NCBI RefSeq assembly: GCF_000210915.2
Contig: NC_016620.1
Coordinates: 310,001-374,000 of the forward strand
From: Halobacteriovorax marinus SJ
GTDB taxonomy: Bacteria > Bdellovibrionota > Bacteriovoracia > Bacteriovoracales > Bacteriovoracaceae
Direction: 5' to 3'
Length of the DNA stretch: 64,000 nt
Positions 37,929-56,841 of this stretch are shown piece by piece. Position 1 is the stretch's first letter. Each line of letters opens with the position of its first letter. A program made the position numbers and the translations under genes. The notes under the pieces were generated by a model. That model made no database searches and was not told the DNA's origin. It saw nothing but the letters and a program-made list of their open reading frames with translations.

Positions 37929-38939
37929 TTATATGATCCTTGCTTGTGCTAGCTGTACCCATTTCTGATTTTCTTTGTACCACTCAATAGTTTTGTCTAT
38001 TCCTTCGGGGAAAGAAGTTTTCGGCTTCCAACTAAGTTCCTCTTGAGATTTTTTAATGTCAACAGCATAGCGCCAATCGTGTCCAAGTCTATCTTCGGTG
38101 TATATAATTAAATCTTCACTTCTATTTATTCTTTTTAAAATATTCTTAGCAATCTCTATATTTCTTTTTTCACATTCTCCTCCTAGGTTGTAAGTTTCTC
38201 CAGATTTTCCCTTGGTGTATGCAGCCCAAACTCCTCTATTATGATCATCTACATAAATCCAGTCACGTATATTCATTCCGTTTCCATAAATAGGTATTGG
38301 CATACCGCTTAGTCCATTGATTATAGTTTTAGGAATAAGTTTTTCCGGAAACTGAAAAGGGCCATAGTTGTTGGAACAGCGAGTAATAACAGTATTGAGT
38401 GAGTATGTATGAAAATATGATTTTACTAAAAGGTCGGAGCCTGCTTTTGAGGAACTGTAGGGGCTGCTTGGTTTGATTTGATGATTTTCTGTAAAAGCAT
38501 TTTCAAGTTCTCTTAGGGAGCCGTAGACCTCATCAGTGCTTATGTGTAGGAATCGAAAGTTGGAATTTGTTTCTCTGAGTTTTAGTGATAAGTTGAGTAG
38601 ATTTAACGTTCCGATTATGTTTGTTTCAATAAATATATTGGGATTTTTGATTGAGTTGTCAACATGGGATTCAGCTGCAAAATGTATAATTCCATGAGGG
38701 TTTTTAATCTTTTTAAGTTCAGCGACTTCAGATGGGTTTCTGATGTCGATCCTTTTGAAGGAAAGGTGTTCATTGTTATCAATAGACTCTTTAATTGATT
38801 CATATATTCCGCAATAGGTAAGGTTGTCTATAATTAAGAAGTTGTATGCTTTCCTTATCTCATTTATTTGGGCAATTGAGTTGACAAAGTTACTTCCTAT
38901 AAAGCCTGCACATCCTGTAAGTATAATTGTTGGTTTCAT
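37929..38939 (-). CDS. rfbB: dTDP-glucose 4,6-dehydratase
   Basis: This enzyme makes dTDP-4-keto-6-deoxyglucose. Family features are TGCAGFIGSNFV at the N-terminus, FAAESHVDNSI, STDEVYGS and YSSSKAGSDLLV (Tyr-x-x-x-Lys), and NNYGPFQFPEKLIP. The length of 336 is normal. It follows rfbA with a 1-base gap and has the Shine-Dalgarno AAGGAA. No rfbC or rfbD lies in the window, so the keto sugar has another fate here or those genes are elsewhere. Confidence 0.96.
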   Translation of the reverse strand: MKPTIILTGCAGFIGSNFVNSIAQINEIRKAYNFLIIDNLTYCGIYESIKESIDNNEHLSFKRIDIRNPSEVAELKKIKNPHGIIHFAAESHVDNSIKNPNIFIETNIIGTLNLLNLSLKLRETNSNFRFLHISTDEVYGSLRELENAFTENHQIKPSSPYSSSKAGSDLLVKSYFHTYSLNTVITRCSNNYGPFQFPEKLIPKTIINGLSGMPIPIYGNGMNIRDWIYVDDHNRGVWAAYTKGKSGETYNLGGECEKRNIEIAKNILKRINRSEDLIIYTEDRLGHDWRYAVDIKKSQEELSWKPKTSFPEGIDKTIEWYKENQKWVQLAQARII

Positions 38940-38940
38940 A

Positions 38941-39810
38941 TTATTCCTTAACTAGGTTTAGAATGTATTGCCCATACTGACTCTTTGAAAGTTTTTCACC
39001 AAGAGTCTTTAGTTTTTGTTTAGAGATGTAGCCTTTGTTGTAGGCAATCTCTTCTGGACAAGAAATCTTGAGACCTTGCCTTTTTTCAATTGTTGAAATA
39101 AAGGTGGACGCCTCAAGCATGCTTTCGTGTGTACCAGTATCAAACCAGGCTATTCCCCTGCCGAGTAGTTCAACTGAAAGTGCCCCTCTCTTCATGTACT
39201 CCTTATTTATGTCAGTTATTTCTAGCTCTCCTCGCGGAGAGGGTTTAATAGTTTTAGCTATTTCTATAACGCTATTGTCGTAAAAGTAGATTCCTGTAAC
39301 TGCATAGTTTGATTTAGGGTGATGAGGCTTTTCTTCAATGCTTACTACCTGTTTGTCTTTTGAGAACTCAACTACTCCATATCTCTTGGGATCTTGAACG
39401 TGGTATGCCATGATTACTGCGGAGGTATTATTGAGCTTTACTGCCTTTTGGAGCTTTTCGGATAAATCTGTTCCGTAGAACACGTTGTCTCCAAGTACTA
39501 GGCATACCTTGTCGTTGCCAACAAAGCTTTCTCCAATGATAAACGCCTGAGCGAGTCCATCTGGTTTTTTTTGCTCGGCGTATGATAGCTTAAGTCCCCA
39601 TCTTTCTCCACAACCAAGTAATTTTTTGTATAAGGGGAGATCTTCAGGGGTAGATATGATTAGTATCTCTCTAATACCACTTAACATAAGTATTGACAAT
39701 GGGTAGTAGATCATTGGTTTATCGTAGATTGGAAGAAGTTGTTTTGTTATGGGGAGGGTTGCAGGATAAAGTCTTGTACCTGTTCCTCCGGCTAAAATTA
39801 TTCCCTTCAT
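38941..39810 (-). CDS. rfbA: Glucose-1-phosphate thymidylyltransferase
   Basis: This enzyme activates glucose-1-phosphate to dTDP-glucose. It shows [16 protein letters not shown] with the nucleotide-binding loop, [27 protein letters not shown] and [16 protein letters not shown]. The length of 289 is standard. It overlaps the upstream GT-C gene by 4 bases and is followed by rfbB, forming a three-gene minus-strand operon. Confidence 0.96.
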
Positions 39811-41375
39811 ATATTTACCTTTGTCGATTTCTTTATAACTAACTGATCTTTTGAGAGCTTGTAAAGTCGATATCCATTACTTTCAAACACTGGCTTGCTC
39901 TCGATCGTGTAGGGGGTGGTTTTTGTATTGTATGAAGTTTGAGTGATGTACACATTTTTTCCAATGTATTTATTGGTAATTTCTTTTAGGTTTTCAGGGG
40001 ATAGCATCTTTAAAAAAACAATCCTTTTGTCTAGGTTTCCATAGGAGAGGTACATATAAAATAAAATTTCGTCATTAATTAAGTATAGATCAGTCTGTAA
40101 AAGGTGGTTGTCAATGTGTTTAATGAATTCTGTTGACTGCTGGTAGTTATGTCTATCGATTCTTTTATTCATTGATAGAAAGTAAGTCTTGGTATCAGTA
40201 ATCATTAAAATTGAAAAGTATACAAGAACAGGACTTATTACGATTCCTTTGATTGTGTTTTCTAGAGGCTTACTGAAGGTCCTTGGAATATAGCTTATGA
40301 TGAATTGGGCTAGGAGTAAGATCCAGGCGTATTTTAAAAATCTAAAAATAAGTTCAACTCTATTAAATAGCTCGAGAGGGTACCTTGGGAGGTTATGAAA
40401 AAGAGAGAGAAAAACAAGTAAAATAATACCGTAGCTAAAGAGAAGGGAGGGTCTTGTTATGAGGTTTTTCTTGTGAAAGTAATTAGCCGTAAGGACTATA
40501 AGTAGGGTTAAGCTACATTGAAGTATGCTAGAGGCACTATTAAGTTTCCCGAAAGCCATTGAGAGGTTATTAAGGAAAATTGTAAAGATGTCCTTGTTGT
40601 CTGCAGTGGGGAGGCTGAAGCTAAGTGGAACGTCTTTTACTAAGATAGGGATAAGTAGGGCTGCGGCCGTGATAAGAATGAATAAAGAATTTCTCAGGAG
40701 GCTTTTTAAGAGCTTTTCCTCACTGTTGAAAACTGTAAGCATTATTGTAACAAGACTATATAGTTTTCCCATTGGGTGGCACAACATAGATAGTGCAGAA
40801 ATTATTATAATTAGTATAATGCTTTTTCTTTTGATTGCTAGCGCCCATGAGACTGCAGAAATTCCTAGAGCTAGATTTGAGGGAACCATTATATGTATCC
40901 CCTGGGCCTTGAAAATTGCAGGGCTTGTTATAATAAGTAGACAGCTTGCAATAAACTTAGGGAATAGGAGGTAAATTAAGTATGCAATTGCACTAGATAT
41001 AAAGATCACAGAAAGTATTCTAAATACTTTGTATGTCTTTGTTATGTCACTAGAGAAAGTATTGAGTGCTTTTAGTAGTAGGGTGTAAAGAGGCTTGTAG
41101 ACTACTAGTACGCCTGCTCGGTCAACTGCTTTTCTAAATGCTATTTCTTCTGAGTTGGATCTTGAATTAATATCAGACTTGATGCCCTCAATGCTGTTGC
41201 AGGCATTTTTTGCACATTTGTTGAGAATATTAACTCTCGAGGTATACATGTATGCATCATCTGCCTCGGTGGGAAGTTTTCTTGAAAGCTCAACAGTTGA
41301 TACGAAAAGAAATTTTGAAAATATAAAGATAGCAACACTTGATATAAAAAAGTAGTTTTTGTGTTTCTCTATCAT
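39807..41375 (-). CDS. GT-C-like polytopic membrane protein
   Basis: The 522 residues hold about ten membrane helices. Soon after the first helix, in the expected periplasmic loop, is [11 protein letters not shown], an Asp-Asp motif like the catalytic acidic pair of GT-C glycosyltransferases. The C-terminal 100 residues are soluble. It is the first gene of the operon with rfbA and rfbB. A lipid-linked sugar transferase role fits both topology and location, but I cannot name a family, and no donor is identifiable. Confidence 0.6.
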
Positions 41376-41479: not shown

Positions 41480-42166
41480 ATGAAAAAGAAGAATGTTTTT
41501 GATGAGTCTCCTAGCACTTATGAGGATATTGTTAATGAAAATATTTCTATGTCTGGTTTGGATATTACTTTTTTTACAAAATTAAAAATAGATGAATTTA
41601 GGCGTAGATTACCGTCCTTGGGAATTGGAGATAATCCTCGAATCTTGGACTTTGGTTGTGGGGTTGGAGAGACTCTAAAGTACCTGAAGGATCTTAGTAA
41701 TGATGTGTGTGGTTTTGATATTAGTTTGGAAAGTGCAGACCTTGCTGCGAAACGAAATCCTGAGGTCTCCATTTTCTCAAGTTTGAAGGAATTGAAAAAG
41801 GAAAAAGAATTCGATATTATTGTGATTGTAAATGTTCTTCATCATGTGCCTCCGGAAGAGAGGGAGGAGTTTTCGACTCAATGTAGAAACTTACTTCGTA
41901 GTGGTGGATGGATCTTTGTATTTGAGCATAACCCCTTGAATCCTGCGACAAGATATATTGTTTCGAACTGTGAAGAGGATAAAGACGCGTCTCTTTTAAA
42001 TCGTAGAGCGCTAGATAGTGTTTTCAGTAGTAGAGATTTTCAGTGCTCTAGTGTATCTTATATTGGTTTTTTTCCGTTTCGACCCAAGTTGTTTCGTGTT
42101 TTCGAGAGGTTTATGTTCTGGATACCATTTGGAGCACAATTTTGCTATCTCGTTCAAAAGAAGTAG
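41480..42166 (+). CDS. Class I SAM-dependent methyltransferase
   Basis: This 228-residue cytosolic protein has SAM motif I as ILDFGCGVGETLKYL (about residues 55-69), motif II GFDIS, and the post-motif VNVLHHVPPEER. Its end (VFERFMFWIPFGAQFCYLV) is hydrophobic, suggesting membrane association, as seen in methyltransferases that sit beside polyprenol-linked sugar genes. A second methyltransferase follows 24 bases later. It may methylate a sugar of the glycan. AT-rich codon usage with many GGT and TTT codons matches its neighbours. Confidence 0.88.
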   Translation: MKKKNVFDESPSTYEDIVNENISMSGLDITFFTKLKIDEFRRRLPSLGIGDNPRILDFGCGVGETLKYLKDLSNDVCGFDISLESADLAAKRNPEVSIFSSLKELKKEKEFDIIVIVNVLHHVPPEEREEFSTQCRNLLRSGGWIFVFEHNPLNPATRYIVSNCEEDKDASLLNRRALDSVFSSRDFQCSSVSYIGFFPFRPKLFRVFERFMFWIPFGAQFCYLVQKK

Positions 42167-42190: not shown

Positions 42191-42820
42191 GTGAGAATTA
42201 ATCAATCTACATTTTCTAATTTATGGCGATTGTTTCAAATTACTATTGGTGCGACTTTCGCTAAAAGAAGGCTGTTGAGAAGGTACTATAATAATGAAAG
42301 TTCTGTGCTTGAGGTGGGGTGCTCTTTGGGGAATCTTACTCCTGCTTTTGCTCCGTATCATAATATGACGTATTTAGGGGTTGATATTGATAGTAGGGTG
42401 ATAGGGTATGCAAAGAAGTCGTTTCGAAATATAGAGAATGTCAGCTTTGTTTGTGCTGATCTGAGGAAAATGAGCAGGGAGGAGAAGTTTGACCTAGTTA
42501 TGTTGCCAGGAATGTTGCATCATGTTTCTGATGAGTTATTGGTGGAGCTTTTAAGGTCTGCATGTGAACTTGTTTCTGTTGGCGGTAGACTTTTAATAAC
42601 CGATCCTTTGGAGACTAGTTCTTCGGATCCTTTGATGTATAGAATTTTTATGAAGCTGGAGCAGGGTAAGTTTCTTAGGAGTAAGGAGGAGTTAGATAAG
42701 CTGGTCTCTTCTGCCGTTGATCTTGAGCTTTTATCTTCGGAAGTTGTGCCAGTTTATCCTACATTTATTAAAGTCCCTAAAGTCTGTGACTTTAGGGTTT
42801 ATTATTTTCAGAAAAGTTAA
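42191..42820 (+). CDS. Class I SAM-dependent methyltransferase
   Basis: A second methyltransferase of 209 residues, with motif I as VLEVGCSLGNLTPAF (about residues 39-53), GVDIDSRVIGYAK and MLPGMLHHVSDELL. The start is GTG. It has no membrane segment. It converges with the GT2 gene, overlapping it by 29 bases at the 3' ends, so one of the two was probably inserted or shuffled in. The acceptor is unknown; an O-methyl sugar or lipid modification is the simple guess. Confidence 0.86.
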   Translation: MRINQSTFSNLWRLFQITIGATFAKRRLLRRYYNNESSVLEVGCSLGNLTPAFAPYHNMTYLGVDIDSRVIGYAKKSFRNIENVSFVCADLRKMSREEKFDLVMLPGMLHHVSDELLVELLRSACELVSVGGRLLITDPLETSSSDPLMYRIFMKLEQGKFLRSKEELDKLVSSAVDLELLSSEVVPVYPTFIKVPKVCDFRVYYFQKS

Positions 42821-43766
42821 GCCTATGGCAGTTGATGGTTTCACTTATTATTGAAGTTGGTCTTCTTTTTATTTCGGAGTAGATTCTTGTGATATACTCT
42901 GAGATTGTGCCTAGGCATATTAGAAGGAGGCTTCCTAGGATCAAGTTGAGAGATATAAGCATTAGGTAGCCCTCTGGTCCTTTAATGTTGAAGATATACA
43001 TTAAGAGGAGGCTCAGAAACCAGAGAATATTAATCCCTGCTGTGACAACTGCAATTAGTGATAGAAACCTTAGTGGTTTGTGGGAGAAGGATGTTATAGC
43101 GAAAATAGCCCAGGACAGATAGTTATATAATGATTGGGTGGTTGTGCCGGAAAATCGTTTGTCTCTGTGGAATGGGACACATGTTTGCTTAAAGCCTACC
43201 CATGCTCTAAGTCCTCTGAAAAACCTCTCTTTTTCTTGGAGCTGGTTGATTACATCCACAACTTTTCGGTCTATGAGGGAGAAGTCTCCTGAGTCGTGAG
43301 GGATTTCGAAGTTTGAAAGTTTGTCCCAGAGTCTGTAAAAGAGCCAATAGCCGATTTTTCTTAGGAGCTTTTCGTCTCTACTTATTGCTTGGCCGTATAC
43401 AACGTCGTAACCCTCTCTCCATTTGTCTATAAACTTTGGAATTACCTCTGGAGGGTCCTGAAGGTCTCCATCCATAAAGATGACACAGTCTCCAAGAGAT
43501 TGTTTTGCACCTGTGTCATAGACACTCATTAATCCAAAGTTTCTACTGTGGTGTATTACTGTAAGCTCTGGGTGTTTATCAGCTAGAGAGTTCAGAACTT
43601 CTTTGGAGTTGTCTGGGCTTCCGTCGTTGATATAAATAACTTCATAGGTAAGTTGCTTGTCTTTAAGTGTTGACGATAGTCTGGCGTAAAGCTCTAGTAT
43701 GTTTCCTTCATCCTTGTAGCATGGGACCACAACAGAAACGTCATAATGGGCTCTATTCATTGTCAA
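42792..43766 (-). CDS. GT2 glycosyltransferase, polyprenyl-phosphate type (GtrB/ArnC-like)
   Basis: This family 2 enzyme opens with VSVVVPCYKDEGNI and has the catalytic DGDLQDPP motif at about residues 97-104. The SGDFSLIDRKV and RGLRAWVGF blocks follow, and two C-terminal membrane helices (about 235-255 and 270-290). This layout matches DPM1/GtrB/ArnC, which make undecaprenyl-phosphate-sugar for transfer by a periplasmic GT-C enzyme. It is the last gene of the split-transketolase operon, overlapping by 14 bases. Confidence 0.93.
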   Translation of the reverse strand: MTMNRAHYDVSVVVPCYKDEGNILELYARLSSTLKDKQLTYEVIYINDGSPDNSKEVLNSLADKHPELTVIHHSRNFGLMSVYDTGAKQSLGDCVIFMDGDLQDPPEVIPKFIDKWREGYDVVYGQAISRDEKLLRKIGYWLFYRLWDKLSNFEIPHDSGDFSLIDRKVVDVINQLQEKERFFRGLRAWVGFKQTCVPFHRDKRFSGTTTQSLYNYLSWAIFAITSFSHKPLRFLSLIAVVTAGINILWFLSLLLMYIFNIKGPEGYLMLISLNLILGSLLLICLGTISEYITRIYSEIKRRPTSIISETINCHRLNFSENNKP

Positions 43767-44688
43767 TCTCTCGAATTTTTTTAGCTATGGATAGTTCATC
43801 AATTGCCGCAAGTCTCATTAGGTCTTTTTCTGATCCAGCTTTTTTTATAAACTCATCAGGTAGATTAAGTGAATTAAAAGATTTTATTTTTAATTGATTT
43901 TGTAGTACTTGATTTGCAATTAGTGATGATAGTCCTCCATTGAGAATGTTTTGCTCAAGGGTTAGTATTTTTGAGTTCTCTCCTATGGCTTTTAGTAAGC
44001 ACTCTGTCGGAAATGGCTTAAGCTGGGTTATGTTGTATATTGATAACTTGCTATTTAATTCTGAAGATATGGATTCAAATGCTTTTGTGGCATAGTTGGT
44101 CATTGAGCCTGTTGTAAAAACTTGAATATGGTCATTCTGTGTCGATTTGTTTGTTAGGATCAAGTCAATTTCAATGATCTTGGAGTTAGAATTTTTGAGT
44201 GCGAACGGCTCAGATCGACCAATTCTTATGTATGAGGGTTTTTTATATTTTGCTTGATGTTTTACGGTTCTTTCTAGGTCAGACGGAGACATAATGGAGT
44301 ATATGTTAATGCCTGCCATGGATAGCATCACGCCGAGATCTTCTACTGAGTGGTGCGAGCACCCTTGTGGTCCATATGCATATCCGGCACCTACACCAAT
44401 TAGGGTAATGTCTTGTTGTCCGATAGATAAATGCATTCGCACCTGTTCTAGGCATCTTAATGTTACGAAGGGGCTCATAGAGTAGCATATGACGGACTTT
44501 CCTGTTCTAGCAAGGCCTCCTGCTATGCCAATCATATTTGCTTCAGAGATTCCTACGTTGAAAAATTGATCTGGAAAGTTTTCCTGTAGTTCTTCAAGGA
44601 GCATGAAGCCAAGATCTGCAGTTAGGAAAATTGCATCTTTATCATTTTTAAGTCTGTTGGAGATTGAGTTTAGGAGTGCATTTTTCAT
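43753..44688 (-). CDS. Transketolase, C-terminal subunit
   Basis: This is the pyrimidine-binding and C-terminal part of a split transketolase. The catalytic glutamate of the ThDP site is in NVGISEANMIGIAGG, followed by SMSPFVTLRCLEQVR and the histidine pair in GCSHHSVEDLGV. It overlaps the N-terminal subunit gene by 4 bases. Together the two halves (about 567 residues) should form a working ThDP enzyme that moves two-carbon ketol units. Placement between sugar-nucleotide genes suggests a specialised sugar reaction rather than the pentose phosphate pathway. Confidence 0.92.
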   Translation of the reverse strand: MKNALLNSISNRLKNDKDAIFLTADLGFMLLEELQENFPDQFFNVGISEANMIGIAGGLARTGKSVICYSMSPFVTLRCLEQVRMHLSIGQQDITLIGVGAGYAYGPQGCSHHSVEDLGVMLSMAGINIYSIMSPSDLERTVKHQAKYKKPSYIRIGRSEPFALKNSNSKIIEIDLILTNKSTQNDHIQVFTTGSMTNYATKAFESISSELNSKLSIYNITQLKPFPTECLLKAIGENSKILTLEQNILNGGLSSLIANQVLQNQLKIKSFNSLNLPDEFIKKAGSEKDLMRLAAIDELSIAKKIREIDNE

Positions 44689-45455
44689 AGTCCAATCTCC
44701 TTTTTTACTACTTTTTCCAGCTCTTCAGTTATTGGTAGGTAGTGCCAGCTTAAAGAGTTTTCCATGAAGCTGATCCCTTTTCCTTTTGTTGTGTTTGCTA
44801 TAATTGCAAGTGGTTTGTCAAAAGTGTTTGTTTCTAGGGCAAGGTTTATCGCATTTGTATCATGGCCATCAATGGAGATTGAGTGGAAACCAAAGCTTGT
44901 AAATTTTTGAGCGATATCTCCCATTGGTACAACGTCATCAGTTTCTCCAAAAGCTTGGAGCTTATTGTTGTCTATAATTACTGTAAGGCTGTTAAGTTTG
45001 TTCGCTCCTGCATATAGTGCTGCTTCCCATATGCTTCCTTCTTGAAGTTCTCCGTCTGAAACTACACAAATCGTTCTGTAGTTGTTTCCATTTAGGCGAT
45101 CAGAGAGTGCCGAGCCGACAGCTACTGATAGCCCATGTCCTAGAGAGCCAGAGGTGAAAAAAACACCCTCTGGGAAGGGGTCACTGATAAAGGATGTAAA
45201 ACTAAATTCTTTGTTGTGGTATTTCATGATGTCAGAGTCAGTCATATACTCAAAATATTTCAATGTTGCGTAAAGGCATAGTGCACCATGTCCTTTGCTA
45301 AGTATGAACTTATCTTTTCCACTTCTCATGTTGAAAAAAGAGCAAACGAGAATCTCAACCATTGATAATGCTGAGCTTATGTGTCCTGTCTTGCTCTGTA
45401 GGGCCATTCGGACGATGTCTTTACGAACTTGTTTGCAAGCGCTATTCTTATTCAT
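44685..45455 (-). CDS. Transketolase, N-terminal (ThDP-binding) subunit
   Basis: This is the pyrophosphate-binding half of a split transketolase. FILSKGHGALCLYATL, TSGSLGHGLSVAVG, and the ThDP/metal motif SDGELQEGSIWEAALYAGAN ... IIDNNK are all present. The ATG at 45455 is preferred over an in-frame TTG at 45479 because AGG lies before it and no Shine-Dalgarno precedes the TTG; the product is 256 residues. First gene of the operon with the C-terminal subunit and a GT2 enzyme. Divergent from the AlkP-like gene. Confidence 0.92.
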   Translation of the reverse strand: MNKNSACKQVRKDIVRMALQSKTGHISSALSMVEILVCSFFNMRSGKDKFILSKGHGALCLYATLKYFEYMTDSDIMKYHNKEFSFTSFISDPFPEGVFFTSGSLGHGLSVAVGSALSDRLNGNNYRTICVVSDGELQEGSIWEAALYAGANKLNSLTVIIDNNKLQAFGETDDVVPMGDIAQKFTSFGFHSISIDGHDTNAINLALETNTFDKPLAIIANTTKGKGISFMENSLSWHYLPITEELEKVVKKEIGL

Positions 45456-45727
45456 TATAAAATACCTAGTTATGGACAATGGGTTAAAGATATCATTTTA
45501 TTACAATAATAAAATGATTTTTTTTTAACTGATTGTATGGAAACTCTAAAAAATAGTTATGTTTAATGAGGGCTATCCGTCTAGTTGGAAAATAAGTTGC
45601 TAAATCTAGATTTTATTCTCGTTTCGAGTATTTTTACTTTGGTCGAAGTGAGAGTCCTAGGTTGGGGAAGCAGTGAGGATAGCTGGCTTGAAGGTCTAGT
45701 TTTGTAAACTTAAGTTGGTGGGGATTT

Positions 45728-47026
45728 ATGAAGAGATTACTTTTTATAGAGCTAAATGAGGTCAATTTCTCATACGTAGAAAAATATATTGCTCTTGGGA
45801 AACTTGAAGGGTTTAAAAAAATTTTAAGTAAATATAGGCTTTCAAAAACTAGTGTTGAGGTGGATTATAGTGCTTGTGAGCCTTGGATTCAGTGGGTGTC
45901 TGCAAGAACAGGGAAGGCGTTCGAGGAGCACAGAGTCTTTCGCTTGGGAGATATTGTCAATACAAGCGAGGTTCAGGTATGGGAAAAGCTCGAGCGCGAT
46001 AGGGGTTTAAGGGTGGGAGCAATTTCTCCAATAAATGGAAGGAACTCTTTAAGAAATCCTCTTTATTTTATTCCAGACCCTTGGACAAAAACCAAAGTAA
46101 GTGGAGGCTTTCTGGACCGAAAGCTTTCAGCTTCAATTGCTCAAATTGTAAATGACAATGCTCATCATCGTGTAGAATTGAGATCTTTATTCTTTCTTTT
46201 CGTTGGTTTTTTAAAGTATTCAAGATTTATAAACTATATAGAATACTTTAAAATTTTATCTTGCCTTAGGTCTAAAAAGTGGAATAAAGCGATGTTTTTG
46301 GACTTACTGTTAGCGGATATGCATATTTGCAAGGTAAAGAAATTGAGACCGGACTTTTCAACGTTATTTTTGAATTCAGCTGCACATATTCAACATCACT
46401 ATTTATTCTCATCAGAGGTCTATGAAGGGAAAAATTATAATCCTGAGTGGTATGTACCAAGAGGGAAAGATCCGCTCTTAGATGTTTATAAGTTGTATGA
46501 GAGAATTATTTGTCAAACTTTGAGAGAATTAGAAAAAGGGGGGGATCTGATGCTTGCAACTGGGTTGCATCAGGATCCATGCTGTGAAAATATTTTTTAT
46601 TATAGACTTAAGGATTATGAGTCTTTCTTTGAAGAGGTTAAGGTAGATTTCTTGCGTATTGAAGCAAGAATGTCGCGTGATTTTCTGATGGTATTTAAAG
46701 ATTCCGCAAGGGCATTGGACGCTGAAAGAGCTATATCATCATTAGTTGCAAGCGCTTCGGGAGACCAAGTCTTCTCTGTTGACAATAGGGGAGATAGTTT
46801 ATTCGTCACACTTGTATATGGAAAAGAGATTGTAGAGAATTTTAAAATTCATAACGATGAGAGTACTGTCTATAACTTTGAAAAATACTGTAGTTTTGTT
46901 GCGATTAAAAATGGCATTCATAATTCAGAGGGCTACTTTTTGGATACCACTTGTCAGGGAGGGGACTGCAGCGATTCCTTTCCGCTTGAACACGTATCAG
47001 AAAAAATACTTAACTACTTTTCTTAA
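45728..47026 (+). CDS. Alkaline-phosphatase-fold protein of the polysaccharide locus
   Basis: This 432-residue protein has features of the alkaline phosphatase superfamily rather than of glycosyltransferases. LLFIELNEVNF at the start places an acidic residue and Asn at the metal site. ACEPWIQWVSARTG resembles the nucleophile region. Further down are SAAHIQHHYLF and ATGLHQDP, candidate His metal ligands. Similar proteins occur in O-antigen loci with no proven role; phosphate or phospho-alcohol transfer or removal is possible. A good GGTGGGGA Shine-Dalgarno precedes the ATG. It is followed 9 bases later by a GT4 gene. Confidence 0.6.
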   Translation: MKRLLFIELNEVNFSYVEKYIALGKLEGFKKILSKYRLSKTSVEVDYSACEPWIQWVSARTGKAFEEHRVFRLGDIVNTSEVQVWEKLERDRGLRVGAISPINGRNSLRNPLYFIPDPWTKTKVSGGFLDRKLSASIAQIVNDNAHHRVELRSLFFLFVGFLKYSRFINYIEYFKILSCLRSKKWNKAMFLDLLLADMHICKVKKLRPDFSTLFLNSAAHIQHHYLFSSEVYEGKNYNPEWYVPRGKDPLLDVYKLYERIICQTLRELEKGGDLMLATGLHQDPCCENIFYYRLKDYESFFEEVKVDFLRIEARMSRDFLMVFKDSARALDAERAISSLVASASGDQVFSVDNRGDSLFVTLVYGKEIVENFKIHNDESTVYNFEKYCSFVAIKNGIHNSEGYFLDTTCQGGDCSDSFPLEHVSEKILNYFS

Positions 47027-47035
47027 TAGGCAGTT

Positions 47036-48166
47036 ATGAAAAAAATACTTTTCTTTGTTAATCCTCTAGCATTTTTTATCTCTCATCGGCTGCCAATAGC
47101 AAGAAAGGCTATTGAGCTCGGTTATGAGGTTCATGTTGCTTCAGGAACTACTGAAGGAAAAGACTTATTGTTAGAGGAAGGAATAGGTTTTCACTATATT
47201 CCTCTTTCCAGAAGTGGTATGCATATGCTTGAAGAGCTTAAATCTATATTTAGCATTTTTAGGCTCTATAAGAGATTATCCCCTGATATTGTTCATCATG
47301 TAACGATTAAGCCAATATTGTATGGAACTCTTGCTGCCAGAATGAATCGTATTCCTCTTATTGTTAATGCATTCACAGGTCTTGGCTATATCTTCACGCA
47401 AAAAGGATTTATATCATATGTTAGAAGATTAATCGTTATTGGGCTTTATAAACTTATACTTAAGAAAGATGGAATACTGAGTATCTTTCAGAATATGGAT
47501 GACATGAGGTATATGTCTAGTTTGAATATTATTAAGAAGAAGAATTCATTTCTAATTAGAGGTTCAGGCGTTGATCTTGAGAAATTTTCTTATGTTGAAG
47601 AAGACAATAATGGCCCGTGTAGGGTTATTTTAGCATCAAGGCTTTTACGAGATAAAGGAGTTTTAGAGTTTGTTGAAGCTGCTTTATTGCTTAAAAACAA
47701 GAGGGCTGATGTTCGTATGATTCTAGTGGGAGAAGTGGATGAAGGAAACCCTTCAGCTATTTCAAGGACTGAGCTTGAATCATGGGTGAAAGAAGGAAGG
47801 GTCGAGTGGTGGGGTTACCGATCGGACATGAATACAGTCTTAGCTTCCGCAAATATAGTTTGCTTACCATCATATAGAGAGGGGTTGCCTAAGGTTTTAA
47901 TTGAAGCTTGCGCCATTGGGAGGGCTATAGTTACTACGGACGTTCCTGGGTGTAGAGAAATTCTTTCTAATAATCATTCTAATGCTTTGCTTGTTGAGTC
48001 TCGGAGGGTGCTCCCGTTACTGGATGCGATTGAGGTATTGGTAGATGACTTTAACTTAAGGGTTAGTATGGGCCTTGCTGGACGTAAGCTTGCTGAGGAA
48101 GAATTTTCTATTTGCAAGGTCGTATCTGAAACAGTGAAAATTTATCAATCATCTAACAGTATTTAA
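47036..48166 (+). CDS. GT4 glycosyltransferase
   Basis: This retaining GT-B enzyme of 376 residues has the acceptor-side start FFVNPLAFFISHRLPIARKA and HHVTIKPILYGTLAARM. The donor-side motifs are ILASRLLRDKGVLEFVEA, and CLPSYREGLPKVLIEACAIGR with the E-x7-E pattern. This matches the PglA/CapM-type group that uses UDP-HexNAc or related donors. It forms a two-gene unit with the AlkP-like gene and converges with the dioxygenase gene (4-base overlap). Confidence 0.92.
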   Translation: MKKILFFVNPLAFFISHRLPIARKAIELGYEVHVASGTTEGKDLLLEEGIGFHYIPLSRSGMHMLEELKSIFSIFRLYKRLSPDIVHHVTIKPILYGTLAARMNRIPLIVNAFTGLGYIFTQKGFISYVRRLIVIGLYKLILKKDGILSIFQNMDDMRYMSSLNIIKKKNSFLIRGSGVDLEKFSYVEEDNNGPCRVILASRLLRDKGVLEFVEAALLLKNKRADVRMILVGEVDEGNPSAISRTELESWVKEGRVEWWGYRSDMNTVLASANIVCLPSYREGLPKVLIEACAIGRAIVTTDVPGCREILSNNHSNALLVESRRVLPLLDAIEVLVDDFNLRVSMGLAGRKLAEEEFSICKVVSETVKIYQSSNSI

Positions 48167-48939
48167 GTTAAAGTTATTTTCTTTCTTAGAGTATTTTTAA
48201 TGAAGGCAAGCGTAGGTTCTCTTTGGTACTGCATGTTAAATAAGTCTTCTCTGTAAGACCAGTTTTTTGCTGGGTTCAGTTGTATCATTAGTTGATCTCT
48301 GTGTTCGTTTGCATTTGGAATTCCAGCCTTGTGCATGCAGAGATTTGGTCGTACAAATAAAACTTTAGACTCTTTACCGTCAAATACAAGAGAAGGATTT
48401 TCTTGTAATTGTATGTTTGGTAAATTCTCTCCTCTCATGAATCCGTTACTTGTTAGACAAAGTGTTTCTTTGAGGGAAAGAGCTTGAAAAGGGCCTTTTG
48501 CGCTATTGATTGAACTTGGTAGACAAAGAATTTTTACACTGTTCTCTGTTAGAAGGGTGTCAGTGTGCCAATGATTTGCGTAAAATGATTTGTTCTGTAG
48601 TTTTTCGGGTAGAGAGTAAGTTCTGTAGTATGTTATAAAGTCGATGCTAAAAGGGCTGTTAAAAAAGCCTAAGAGCTCATTTTGGATCTGGCTATCTTTT
48701 AAAATAGATTTAACAAATGCCTTTAATGATTCTTCTTCGATAATTAATTTCGAAGAGTAATTTGAAAGTTTAAATTCTTCTTTTATCTTAAGTTTGTTTA
48801 AATTTATGTTTTCATTATAATGGAGGACAAATCCATTTTTTAGAAGAGGGCTGTTGGATTGATTTGAACTATTTTTAAGAAAATACAGTCGTTCAAGTTT
48901 ACTAACTAGTGTGATGATATAAGAAATTAGTTTATACAT
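48163..48939 (-). CDS. Phytanoyl-CoA dioxygenase-like Fe(II)/2-oxoglutarate oxygenase
   Basis: This protein shows the iron-binding facial triad of the PhyH family: the HxD of HWHTDTL in the middle and the distal His in MHKAGIP, followed by HRDQLMIQL whose Arg would bind 2-oxoglutarate. The ATG at 48939 has AAAAGG before it and is preferred to the in-frame ATG at 48975; the product is 258 residues. It stands alone on the minus strand among glycan genes. It may hydroxylate a sugar or lipid of the polysaccharide; this is inferred from family and position. Confidence 0.72.
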   Translation of the reverse strand: MYKLISYIITLVSKLERLYFLKNSSNQSNSPLLKNGFVLHYNENINLNKLKIKEEFKLSNYSSKLIIEEESLKAFVKSILKDSQIQNELLGFFNSPFSIDFITYYRTYSLPEKLQNKSFYANHWHTDTLLTENSVKILCLPSSINSAKGPFQALSLKETLCLTSNGFMRGENLPNIQLQENPSLVFDGKESKVLFVRPNLCMHKAGIPNANEHRDQLMIQLNPAKNWSYREDLFNMQYQREPTLAFIKNTLRKKITLT

Positions 48940-49021
48940 ATTTAACCTTTTAGTTATAGATAAATGTTTAAACATTGTCGCTGTTGTGTCAAGATTAGAG
49001 AGGCATTCACTCTATAAGGCT

Positions 49022-54550: not shown

Positions 54551-55675
54551 ATTAGGAAAATCTTACGTATTAGTACTTATCCAACCAGCCTGTTTCCCGG
54601 AGCAGGTTACCATCCCTATAAAATAACTAAGTTGGATTCTAAATCATTTGTACATTATGTTTCTCCTCGTTTAGATGGTGAAAAATTTAGTGTGCCTTTA
54701 AACTGTAGTCATGTGTCGGTTTGGCAGTGGATGAGGGCGAGGCCCAGAGGTCGAGGCTTTCTAGACTCTGTATTACATTCCTTCTTGAGATCTTTATCTA
54801 TCTTATGGATAAGTATTGTATCTATTACTATCTTAATAAGATACAGAATTAGAGTCGTTCATGTTCACTCGCCAATGTATTTAATAGTTGCATTATTCAA
54901 TAAGGCTGTAGGAGGGGTAAACTATATTACATTTCATGGAAGTGACTATTATCGAGTTAAGAATAAATGTTGGTTTAGGCTTTTTTCAAAGTGTATTTGT
55001 AGAGTATTTTGTATCTCTCCTCAGATGATCGATGGTATGAGTAATATATTTGGAGAGTCAAGGGTACATATAGTACCAAACGGTATTGATTCAAATCTGA
55101 AAAACAATGAAGTAGTAAAAGATAGAGAAGGTTTTTTGGGTGTCGGTTTTCTTAAAAATGAAAAAGGGTTTTCATTTCTTATTGAAGGGTATGCGAAGTT
55201 TGTTGGGGAGATGAAGTCTTTAAAGAAAGAATACCCCAGACTAAGGATTGCTGGCGAAGGTTACTTAAGAGGTGATCTCGAAGAATTGATTAAAAAGCTT
55301 GGACTCTGTGGAGATGTTCTTCTTTTAGGGCATTTGGACATAGATAAAATGAGTGCTGAGTATCTGAAGTCAGAGTTCTTTATTTTATCTTCTGTATCTG
55401 AAGGTTTTCCTAAGGTTGTTCTTGAGGCATTTAAGAGTGGGTGTAAGGTAGTTTTGACAAATGTTGGGTCTTGTTCAACTATTGTAGGCGATGAATATCC
55501 ATTTTTAATTAATCATAGTAGCAGTGATGAGATATCTAAGGCTTTGGTCTCAATAGTTGATGATCGATCTTTTGACTTTAGGGGTTTAAGAAGAGATGTT
55601 TTGTTTAAATATAGTTGGGAGAATGTAATGAGTAAGTATGATGATCAGTGGAGTAATGATGTATTCGATGCATGA
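54551..55675 (+). CDS. GT4 glycosyltransferase with apparent ATT start
   Basis: This GT-B enzyme has the donor motifs IDSNLKN, GVGFLKNEKGFSFLIEGY, RIAGEGYLRGDL, and LSSVSEGFPKVVLEAFKSG with the E-x7-E signature. The usual family start (KILRISTYPTSLFPGAGYH) lies upstream of the first TTG (54632) and is in frame, so the true gene begins earlier. No ATG, GTG or TTG exists between the asnB stop and that block. AAGGAG (54538-54543) is 7 bases from ATT at 54551, the likely start. Alternatively the ATG at 54529 starts the gene and the T-run at 54545-54549 carries a one-base frameshift. The length would be 374. Confidence 0.85.
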   Translation: MRKILRISTYPTSLFPGAGYHPYKITKLDSKSFVHYVSPRLDGEKFSVPLNCSHVSVWQWMRARPRGRGFLDSVLHSFLRSLSILWISIVSITILIRYRIRVVHVHSPMYLIVALFNKAVGGVNYITFHGSDYYRVKNKCWFRLFSKCICRVFCISPQMIDGMSNIFGESRVHIVPNGIDSNLKNNEVVKDREGFLGVGFLKNEKGFSFLIEGYAKFVGEMKSLKKEYPRLRIAGEGYLRGDLEELIKKLGLCGDVLLLGHLDIDKMSAEYLKSEFFILSSVSEGFPKVVLEAFKSGCKVVLTNVGSCSTIVGDEYPFLINHSSSDEISKALVSIVDDRSFDFRGLRRDVLFKYSWENVMSKYDDQWSNDVFDA

Positions 55676-56393
55676 GGTTAAATCAAGATCTCGACGTGAA
55701 AACTATAAAGATAATGCAATTTTGCACTTTTTTAGTGCACACGTTTCAATTTATTTTACATTTATTTTTGTAAACTTAAAAATGTCTGCAAATGCAGTTA
55801 CAGTCCTTTTTTTTCTAACAGGGTTTTCAGGTATTCTTTTTTTAAGTAGTTTTGAGGGAAAGGTTGCTTCTTTATTTTATTTAGCCTGGAGGTTACACAT
55901 AATCTTCGATATTTGCGACGGAGAAGTTGCTAGATTTTTTAAAAAATTCACTCTTAATGGTGTGTATTGGGACTATATGATACATAGTTTACTATACCCC
56001 CTTTATGGAATAGGTATCTGCATTCACTATTATATGTCTTTTTCAGATGTTCAGTTTTTGTATCTTGCGATAGGTTATAGTGTGACAGGAAGCTTTTTGA
56101 GTGGAGTTAAGAATAATTATAGTCGCGCCCTGCATGAGAAAGGGATAACTAAAGAGAGTTCTAAGGTTCGAAATACAGCAAGGGGTAAAAAGCTTTATAT
56201 ATTTAACTTGGTATCTGCTAGTGTTGGTTTTGAAGGCTTCTTATTAGTAAACTTTGTATTGATATTTTTTAGTTATAGCTCTGCAGGCATTATTAAGTAT
56301 ACCCTTTTCACTTATTTACTTACGCATGCAATGATTATCGCAGTTAAATTTTTGTCTCTCTCTAAGAAGGGACAGTACCTTGCTCGTAACTAG
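55659..56393 (+). CDS. CDP-alcohol phosphatidyltransferase family protein
   Basis: This membrane enzyme (about six helices) would transfer an alcohol phosphate from a CDP-alcohol. The family motif D-x2-D-G-x2-A-R-x8-G-x3-D-x3-D is seen as DICDGEVAR then G and D in NGVYWDYMIH, with the fourth Asp, the proposed base, replaced by His. The ATG at 55659 is placed 5 bases after GGAG, overlapping the end of the preceding GT gene. Directly followed by a cytidylyltransferase that would supply the CDP-alcohol. Substrate unknown. Confidence 0.85.
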   Translation: MYSMHEVKSRSRRENYKDNAILHFFSAHVSIYFTFIFVNLKMSANAVTVLFFLTGFSGILFLSSFEGKVASLFYLAWRLHIIFDICDGEVARFFKKFTLNGVYWDYMIHSLLYPLYGIGICIHYYMSFSDVQFLYLAIGYSVTGSFLSGVKNNYSRALHEKGITKESSKVRNTARGKKLYIFNLVSASVGFEGFLLVNFVLIFFSYSSAGIIKYTLFTYLLTHAMIIAVKFLSLSKKGQYLARN

Positions 56394-56412
56394 TCAGCCT
56401 TGGGGAGGAAGT

Positions 56413-56841
56413 ATGAAGAAGGAAGTTGTAGGATATACTACAGGTGTTTTTGACTTGTTTCATGTTGGACATGTTAACCTACTTAGGAATGCAAAGTCGA
56501 TGTGTGACAAACTTATAGTGGGGGTTTCTGTTGATGAGCTTGTCAGTTATAAGAATAAAACCTCCGTAATTAAGTATCCAGAAAGAGCTGAAATCGTAAG
56601 GTCTGTAAGATACGTTGATTTAGTTGTTCCTCAGATTGATATGAATAAGCTTGATGCATGGGAAAAGTATAAGTTTGATATTATGTTTGTAGGAAGTGAT
56701 TGGCAGAATACCGATAAATGGAATGAAATTGAGAAGGCTCTTGGAGAGAAGGGTGTGAGAGTAATTTATTTCCCTTATACCAGGGGAGTTTCTTCAACAC
56801 TTATTAACGAGATATTAAAGGAAAGACGTGAAGACAAATAA
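56413..56841 (+). CDS. Glycerol-3-phosphate cytidylyltransferase-like (TagD family)
   Basis: This 142-residue nucleotidyltransferase has the TagD features TGVFDLFHVGHVNLL (the HxGH motif), IVGVSVDELVSYK and YPERAEIVRSVRYVD, FVGSDWQ, and RGVSSTLINE as the ISSS/T-like motif. The ATG at 56413 follows GGGGAGGA and is preferred over an upstream in-frame ATG at 56380. It should make CDP-glycerol or another CDP-alcohol. Position next to the CDP-alcohol transferase supports a joint pathway. It overlaps the following gene by 14 bases. Confidence 0.92.
   Translation: MKKEVVGYTTGVFDLFHVGHVNLLRNAKSMCDKLIVGVSVDELVSYKNKTSVIKYPERAEIVRSVRYVDLVVPQIDMNKLDAWEKYKFDIMFVGSDWQNTDKWNEIEKALGEKGVRVIYFPYTRGVSSTLINEILKERREDK

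Follow-up and report, generated by a model that had tools for sequence, protein, structure and literature searches.

Transketolase genes inside a surface-polysaccharide locus raise the question of what such an enzyme contributes to a glycan. In the window (the whole 64,000-nucleotide stretch of the Halobacteriovorax marinus SJ genome analysed here), the two halves of a transketolase are encoded in a region whose genes read as a surface-polysaccharide locus, with Wzx/Wzy-like, WecA-like, UGD and glycosyltransferase genes. Judged from sequence comparison, the most likely function of the pair would be the two-carbon branching of a nucleotide-linked 4-keto sugar, which would supply a polyprenyl-linked sugar for a surface glycan.

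The split transketolase pair and its operon

The pair shows the arrangement expected of a split gene, with Transketolase_N (PF00456, 96.8 bits) on one chain (TKN), Transket_pyr (PF02779, 79.7 bits) and Transketolase_C (PF02780, 40.4 bits) on the other (TKC), and the genes adjacent (Table 1). The closest solved structure to TKN is 6yak, the N chain of the Carboxydothermus split transketolase (E 7.8e-43), and the TKC profile matches structure 6yaj (E 1.7e-60). A TTG at 45479 would give TKN a longer reading. By its domains the pair is a member of the transketolase family, an assignment made at the level of the family and not of EC 2.2.1.1; the family profile matches of the locus genes are far beyond chance. 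Two other classes of ThDP enzyme were considered and rejected. Models of the E1 component of pyruvate dehydrogenase, which would indicate an aldgarose-type alpha-keto-acid dehydrogenase with E1 alpha and beta chains, reach 28-39 bits, whereas transketolase models score 207 and 118, and a YerE-like, decarboxylase-type single-chain enzyme is set aside by the fact that the best matches of the pair are transketolase models.

TKN and TKC overlap by 4 nt (ATGA) and TKC overlaps the GT2 gene by 8 nt (ATGAATAG), so that the three genes form one overlapping minus-strand set, ending at a terminator-like stem of a kind whose total across the region is no higher than in shuffled sequence. The earlier note had described two overlapping genes for both transketolase halves, in an operon with a polyprenyl-phosphate type GT2, and both descriptions hold. 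The interval 44685-45455 to which it assigned the pair covers the TKN half; the TKC half, at 43753-44688, lies outside it.

Table 1. Features of the split transketolase locus (positions in the window)
Feature	Position	Strand or placement	Basis
RmlB, dTDP-glucose 4,6-dehydratase	37929-38939	-	TIGR01181 415.9 bits, cutoff 365
RmlA, glucose-1-phosphate thymidylyltransferase	38941-39810	-	TIGR01207 485 bits, cutoff 361
Membrane protein, 522 aa, about 8 TM segments, EADDAY motif in first loop	39807-41375	-	Hydropathy TM count
SAM methyltransferase 1	41480-42166	+	Pfam Methyltransf_23 60 bits
SAM methyltransferase 2	42191-42820	+	Pfam Methyltransf_25 60 bits
Terminator-like 10-bp stem, T-rich tail	42775-42797	Between convergent GT2 and methyltransferase genes	Consensus scan
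GT2, PgfS/ArnC/GtrB type, two C-terminal TM segments	42792-43760	-	PgfS and ArnC models
TKC, pyrimidine-binding and C-terminal half of split transketolase, 311 aa	43753-44688	-	Pfam PF02779/PF02780
TKN, N-terminal ThDP-diphosphate-binding half of split transketolase, 256 aa	44685-45455	-	ATG at 45455

The GT2 scores 229.5 bits with the PgfS model (curated cutoff 500) and 138.8 bits with the ArnC model, also below cutoff. It is a probable polyprenyl-phosphate sugar transferase, in the sense that it would work like these enzymes. About 1.4 kb past this operon lies a second minus-strand set (37929-41375), comprising the 522-aa membrane protein, RmlA and RmlB, which places RmlA and RmlB 4-6 kb from the transketolase pair in an operon of their own. 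Both are true members of their NCBIfam families, as the earlier note had supposed in naming RfbA and RfbB, and neither RmlC nor RmlD occurs in the window, in agreement with the absence of RfbC and RfbD that it reported. The two plus-strand methyltransferase genes separate the sets; their association with the transketolase operon is weak given the opposite strand, and methyltransferases recur beside related split-transketolase modules. The 522-aa membrane protein has no Pfam match, no homolog among the collected split-transketolase loci and a predicted structure of mean pLDDT 42. It may tentatively be regarded as a GT-C glycosyltransferase, a weak assignment by analogy with comparably sized PMT_2-like proteins encoded in related modules.

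Elsewhere in the polysaccharide region, proteins of 432 and 270 aa (45728-47026 and 48163-48975) have no Pfam or NCBIfam match. At 55638-56841, a CDP-alcohol phosphatidyltransferase-like membrane protein is followed by what reads as a glycerol-phosphate cytidylyltransferase-like protein, which suggests a phosphodiester-linked residue in the polymer.

Active site of the pair

The cofactor site is retained, with the ThDP motifs GHxS, SKGH and DGE..N in TKN and E411, H473 and R520 (E. coli transketolase numbering) in TKC. The canonical substrate residues of TKC are gone, being replaced by S385G, H461G and D469Q, and the usual His of the LxxHP motif in TKN is replaced as well. Mutation at R358, S385, D469 and R520 alters the acceptor range of transketolases (PMC7661550). 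Across 155 TKCs, at least two sugar-gene neighbours were found for 77 of the 121 that do not keep both His461 and Asp469, compared with 2 of the 34 that keep both, and loss of one or both residues is associated with a sugar-gene neighbourhood (p 5e-10). Both residues are also missing from AptB, the other split transketolase with a known ketone partner. Because common descent may account for part of the loss, the pattern fits a ketone acceptor but falls short of proof.

Related split-transketolase loci

Comparison drew on 40 loci from the same class, at least 80 from bacterial genomes and at least 80 from contigs catalogued as viral; outside Bdellovibrionota, sampling came mainly from one scan of at least 80 loci. 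Two types (their loci numbered with L) could be distinguished. In type 1, TKN-TKC accompanies a fusion of about 610-710 aa between an SDR (an NAD-dependent sugar epimerase/reductase) and a GT2 domain, often together with a methyltransferase and a multi-TM protein of 500-700 aa; two of these multi-TM proteins touch the PMT_2 model. Type 1 spans at least seven phyla, namely Bdellovibrionota, Bacillota, Pseudomonadota (one also on a Methylobacterium plasmid), Bacteroidota, Lentisphaerota, Moraniibacteriota and Berkelbacteria, the last two belonging to the CPR. In the sister type, type 2, RfbG-RfbH lies directly upstream of TKN-TKC (L096, L102, L113, L161), with RfbF also present where the contig reaches.

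The most informative type-1 operons hold RmlA and RmlB without RmlC or RmlD: GT-C, methyltransferase, RmlA, RmlB, TKN, TKC, SDR::GT2 and methyltransferase in L100; GT-C, RmlA, RmlB, SDR, TKN, TKC and methyltransferase in L283; and SDR, TKN, TKC, methyltransferase, GT2, RmlB and RmlA in L281. In L280 and L281 the SDR and GT2 are unfused, as separate genes around the transketolase. In Dyadobacter (L137, L120, L142), the fusion gene separates TKN from TKC. Split transketolase halves also occur on the viral-catalogued contigs (L169-L248), often with sugar-nucleotide genes, and L170 and L172 carry a type-1-family SDR directly upstream of TKN.

The two types differ in the sugar-nucleotide genes with which they are associated. 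RmlB lies within 10 kb of the transketolase in seven separate loci counted with type 1 (the window, L051, L087, L091, L100, L281, L283), compared with one of about 130 other split-transketolase loci (L124, which also has RfbF/G), and neither RfbG nor RfbH lies within 10 kb in any SDR::GT2 fusion locus. L091 is weak evidence for a dTDP sugar, as it holds the whole RmlABCD set, and in many type-1 members RmlB is absent within this distance. At the level of whole genomes, with type-1 members chosen by transketolase and SDR::GT2 profile rather than by RmlB, genome lists compiled by hand and kinship ignored, RmlB occurs, among 369 Bdellovibrionota genomes, in 18 of the 21 that carry type 1 and in 175 of the remaining 348 (p 0.001), or in 15 of 17 type-1 genera against 100 of 165 others (p 0.02). 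RfbG is not enriched there, its frequency in type-1 genomes (6 of 21) not differing from that in the rest. Type-2 genomes have RfbG in 9 of 9 cases against 26% elsewhere (p 9e-6, kinship again ignored), a result that is partly expected because RfbG near the transketolase was already known in several of them, and RmlB in 2 of 9.

The window has a TKN-TKC pair beside a PgfS/ArnC-like GT2, as related loci do. Its GT2 stands alone, however, with no SDR fused to it or beside it. FastTree placed the window transketolase within the type-1 clade (support 0.847), a placement that was not upheld by the better model: under an IQ-TREE mixture model it falls in a clade of type 1 and part of type 2 (support 95), on a long branch whose side, with the dTDP-type or the CDP-type clade, has a support of 10. 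The window GT2 branches at the base of the SDR-fused, transketolase-adjacent type-1 GT2 domains (SH-aLRT 90); given this position and the unfused relatives L280 and L281, its interpretation as a decayed fusion is disfavoured. No ortholog of the type-1 SDR was found in the host genome (best 117 bits, where clear type-1 SDRs mostly exceed 400 bits against a similar profile). Because of this and the lone GT2, the window locus is better described as a divergent relative of type 1, unfused, than as a full member, and its assignment to dTDP sugars rests on gene order, the nearby RmlA-RmlB and the GT2. Its transketolase is patchily distributed, with a best identity elsewhere of at most 46% in 129 genomes of the class.

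Candidate partners of the pair in the host genome

The 3.44-Mb genome holds three Transketolase_N matches: a full-length enzyme of 673 aa (genome 1078736-1080755), the window pair, and a second split pair unrelated to it (genome 3149607-3151318; L016:1107-2818). This second pair adjoins a 463-aa HAD/kinase-like protein, two epimerases and an RfaE-like cytidylyltransferase near aroA, aroB and aroC, a neighbourhood found again in L071 and partially in L070.

The genome lacks the RmlC and RmlD that would complete a dTDP-rhamnose pathway. Genome-wide, RmlD has no TIGR01214 match above cutoff (best 91 of 224 bits), and RmlC gives one weak, short PF00908 match, a 145-aa protein at genome 386005-386439 (48.5 bits). 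This protein opens a gene set at genome 386005-397616 (L013:12005 to L014:4616) in which it is followed by an SDR and, some kb on, by RfbH, SDR, RfbF, RfbG and a further SDR, a probable CDP-3,6-dideoxyhexose set. RfbF and RfbG lie at genome 394923-396796, and the protein at 392607-393896 is one that we take to be RfbH from its iron-sulfur cysteine motif; these genes are about 40 kb to the right of the window transketolase. Close relatives of the RmlC-like protein have RfbG within about 1 kb in 20 of 34 genomes and RmlB in 3 (a hand count), for which reason it is most likely a member of the CDP route. With canonical RmlC and RmlD missing as well, a rhamnose role for RmlA-RmlB is unlikely, and the two are left with no known partner apart from the transketolase.

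The earlier note had proposed a genome search for rfbC, rfbD and a second transketolase as a check on its branching hypothesis. The outcome leaves that hypothesis standing, since the combination named against it, rfbC and rfbD elsewhere with the window pair as sole transketolase, was not found.

Proposed function and alternative explanations

On balance we favour, by a modest degree of belief, the reading that the pair is a dedicated sugar-branching transketolase, which would add a C2 ketol unit to dTDP-4-keto-6-deoxyglucose, the branched sugar then passing by way of polyprenyl phosphate to a glycan. As we infer it, in acceptor, donor, product, order of steps and final glycan, the route would run as follows. 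RmlA and RmlB would produce dTDP-4-keto-6-deoxyglucose, while TKN and TKC would jointly bind ThDP and accept a two-carbon ketol unit from a donor. Addition of this unit to C4 of the keto sugar would give a tertiary alcohol with a branch that is expected to be hydroxyacetyl, not acetyl. In most relatives the SDR, often fused to the GT2, probably reduces or epimerises the branched product. The GT2 would then shift the sugar from dTDP onto polyprenyl phosphate. From there a membrane enzyme of GT-C type would pass it on to the surface glycan; methyltransferases may decorate it. The idea of a branched-sugar pathway ending on a glycan, put forward in the earlier note, thus gains from the comparative link to RmlA-RmlB and GT2, and its suggestion of yersiniose- or aldgarose-type chemistry does not stand, as those branches are made by other ThDP classes (PMC12247030).

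A dTDP-linked acceptor is more likely than a CDP-linked one. That the same chemistry acts instead on a CDP-linked 3,6-dideoxy-4-keto sugar from RfbF, RfbG and RfbH (genome 392607-396796) is an unlikely yet credible alternative: all three enzymes are encoded in the host, and the separation of the window transketolase from the sister clade, in which they stand directly upstream of TKN-TKC, is without support. The fusion loci nevertheless keep no RfbG or RfbH near the transketolase, and RmlA-RmlB would be left with no clear use. Moreover, the order RfbH-SDR-RfbF-RfbG-SDR looks like a complete set already, presumably of the tyvelose/paratose type. Compatible with this alternative, and uninformative on the transketolase, is the rather unlikely proposal that the 145-aa RmlC-like protein and the adjoining SDR work with RmlA-RmlB towards a rhamnose-like sugar. 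The PF00908 match, at about 47-48.5 bits, does exceed the Pfam cutoff, but the company kept by the relatives of this protein makes CDP sugars the likelier destination.

The remaining alternatives concern the reaction itself. It is distinctly unlikely that the pair acts on sugars in free or phosphorylated form, producing or remodelling one (such as a ketose phosphate precursor) that later enters the glycan, and leaves the nucleotide keto sugar untouched. This would match what known transketolases do, and the HAD-like and cytidylyltransferase-like neighbours of the second split pair, as read, would fit such a route; it is countered by the conserved link of the family to RmlB or RfbG and to SDR::GT2, by the loss of the substrate contacts Ser385, His461 and Asp469, and by the absence of a kinase, isomerase or phosphatase among the genes seen to recur beside GT2-linked pairs. 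It is very improbable that the pair works in reverse, detaching a C2 unit from a sugar in the manner of the apulose-phosphate enzyme. Transketolases are reversible, and AptB also lacks His461 and Asp469, but the neighbouring genes point to synthesis (NDP-sugar formation, GT2, methyltransferases), and none for uptake or catabolism was seen among them. A central-metabolism transketolase lying in the locus by chance is barely credible; only homology speaks for it, against the patchy distribution and altered active site of the pair, and such a role is unlikely because the genome has a full-length transketolase elsewhere as well as another split pair.

Beyond the window, there is an even chance that there exists a widespread, hitherto undescribed family of split transketolases whose products, tertiary-branched deoxysugars with a hydroxyacetyl or dihydroxyethyl group, go into bacterial surface glycans. 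It would comprise a dTDP branch, marked by RmlA/B, SDR::GT2 and a polyprenyl carrier, and a CDP branch, marked by RfbF/G/H, with the window locus as a divergent, unfused member and relatives in viral-catalogued contigs. If true, this would amount to another broadly distributed way of making branched surface sugars, add a class of enzymes for chiral tertiary alcohols and aid the prediction of unusual sugars from genomes. The operons of L100, L281 and L283 name substrate, carrier enzyme and partners, which would make the proposal of a ketone acceptor for transketolases directly testable.

Comparison with known systems

In the GtrA/GtrB, ArnC-ArnT and PgfS systems, a GT2 loads a sugar onto polyprenyl phosphate and a multi-TM transferase uses it outside. 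The window resembles them in its GT2, a probable enzyme of polyprenyl phosphate loading; to our knowledge, none of these systems includes a transketolase or a GT2-fused SDR. The two-chain enzyme AptA/AptB (apulose-4-phosphate transketolase) makes or cleaves a bond at a ketone carbon in the apiose pathway. AptB of E. coli SE15, named an apiose-pathway transketolase (PMC13001218), has Asn and Leu at the positions of His461 and Asp469; AptA/AptB differs from the window pair in being catabolic, in its sugar phosphate substrate and in its nearby kinase and transporter genes. The split transketolase of Carboxydothermus hydrogenoformans (6YAK/6YAJ, PMC7661550) has the same two-chain architecture and is the nearest structure for both halves, but it keeps the canonical substrate residues and uses aldehydes.

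Among enzymes that branch nucleotide sugars, YerE, of yersiniose A biosynthesis, is a ThDP enzyme that branches a deoxysugar of the CDP-4-keto kind, destined for a surface glycan (PMC12247030). It is, however, a single chain of the pyruvate decarboxylase type that introduces an acetyl branch, unlike the two-chain transketolase of the window. The branches of yersiniose and aldgarose come from YerE-type decarboxylases and alpha-keto-acid dehydrogenases, respectively, and ThDP-made branched LPS sugars have been attributed to YerE-like enzymes, sugar-branching transketolases being credited, untested, only with a few Streptomyces products (PMC12247030). In the open-licence papers searched, nothing direct was found on transketolases in O-antigen or polyprenyl-linked pathways, nor on this gene set in surface-glycan loci, its breadth or the SDR::GT2 fusion.

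The present proposal is not new in kind. For miharamycin and amipurimycin of Streptomyces, split-gene transketolases have been proposed, untested in vitro, to attach a hydroxyacetyl group to a keto sugar, and a review counts 13 further sequences of this type, all from Streptomycetes (PMC12247030). These pairs resemble the window pair in the two-gene transketolase, the keto sugar acceptor and the proposed tertiary alcohol. By their published description they are set apart in serving soluble antibiotics. The window pair and its relatives, by contrast, go with RmlA/B and a polyprenyl-phosphate type GT2, and their surface-glycan loci are spread over at least seven phyla.
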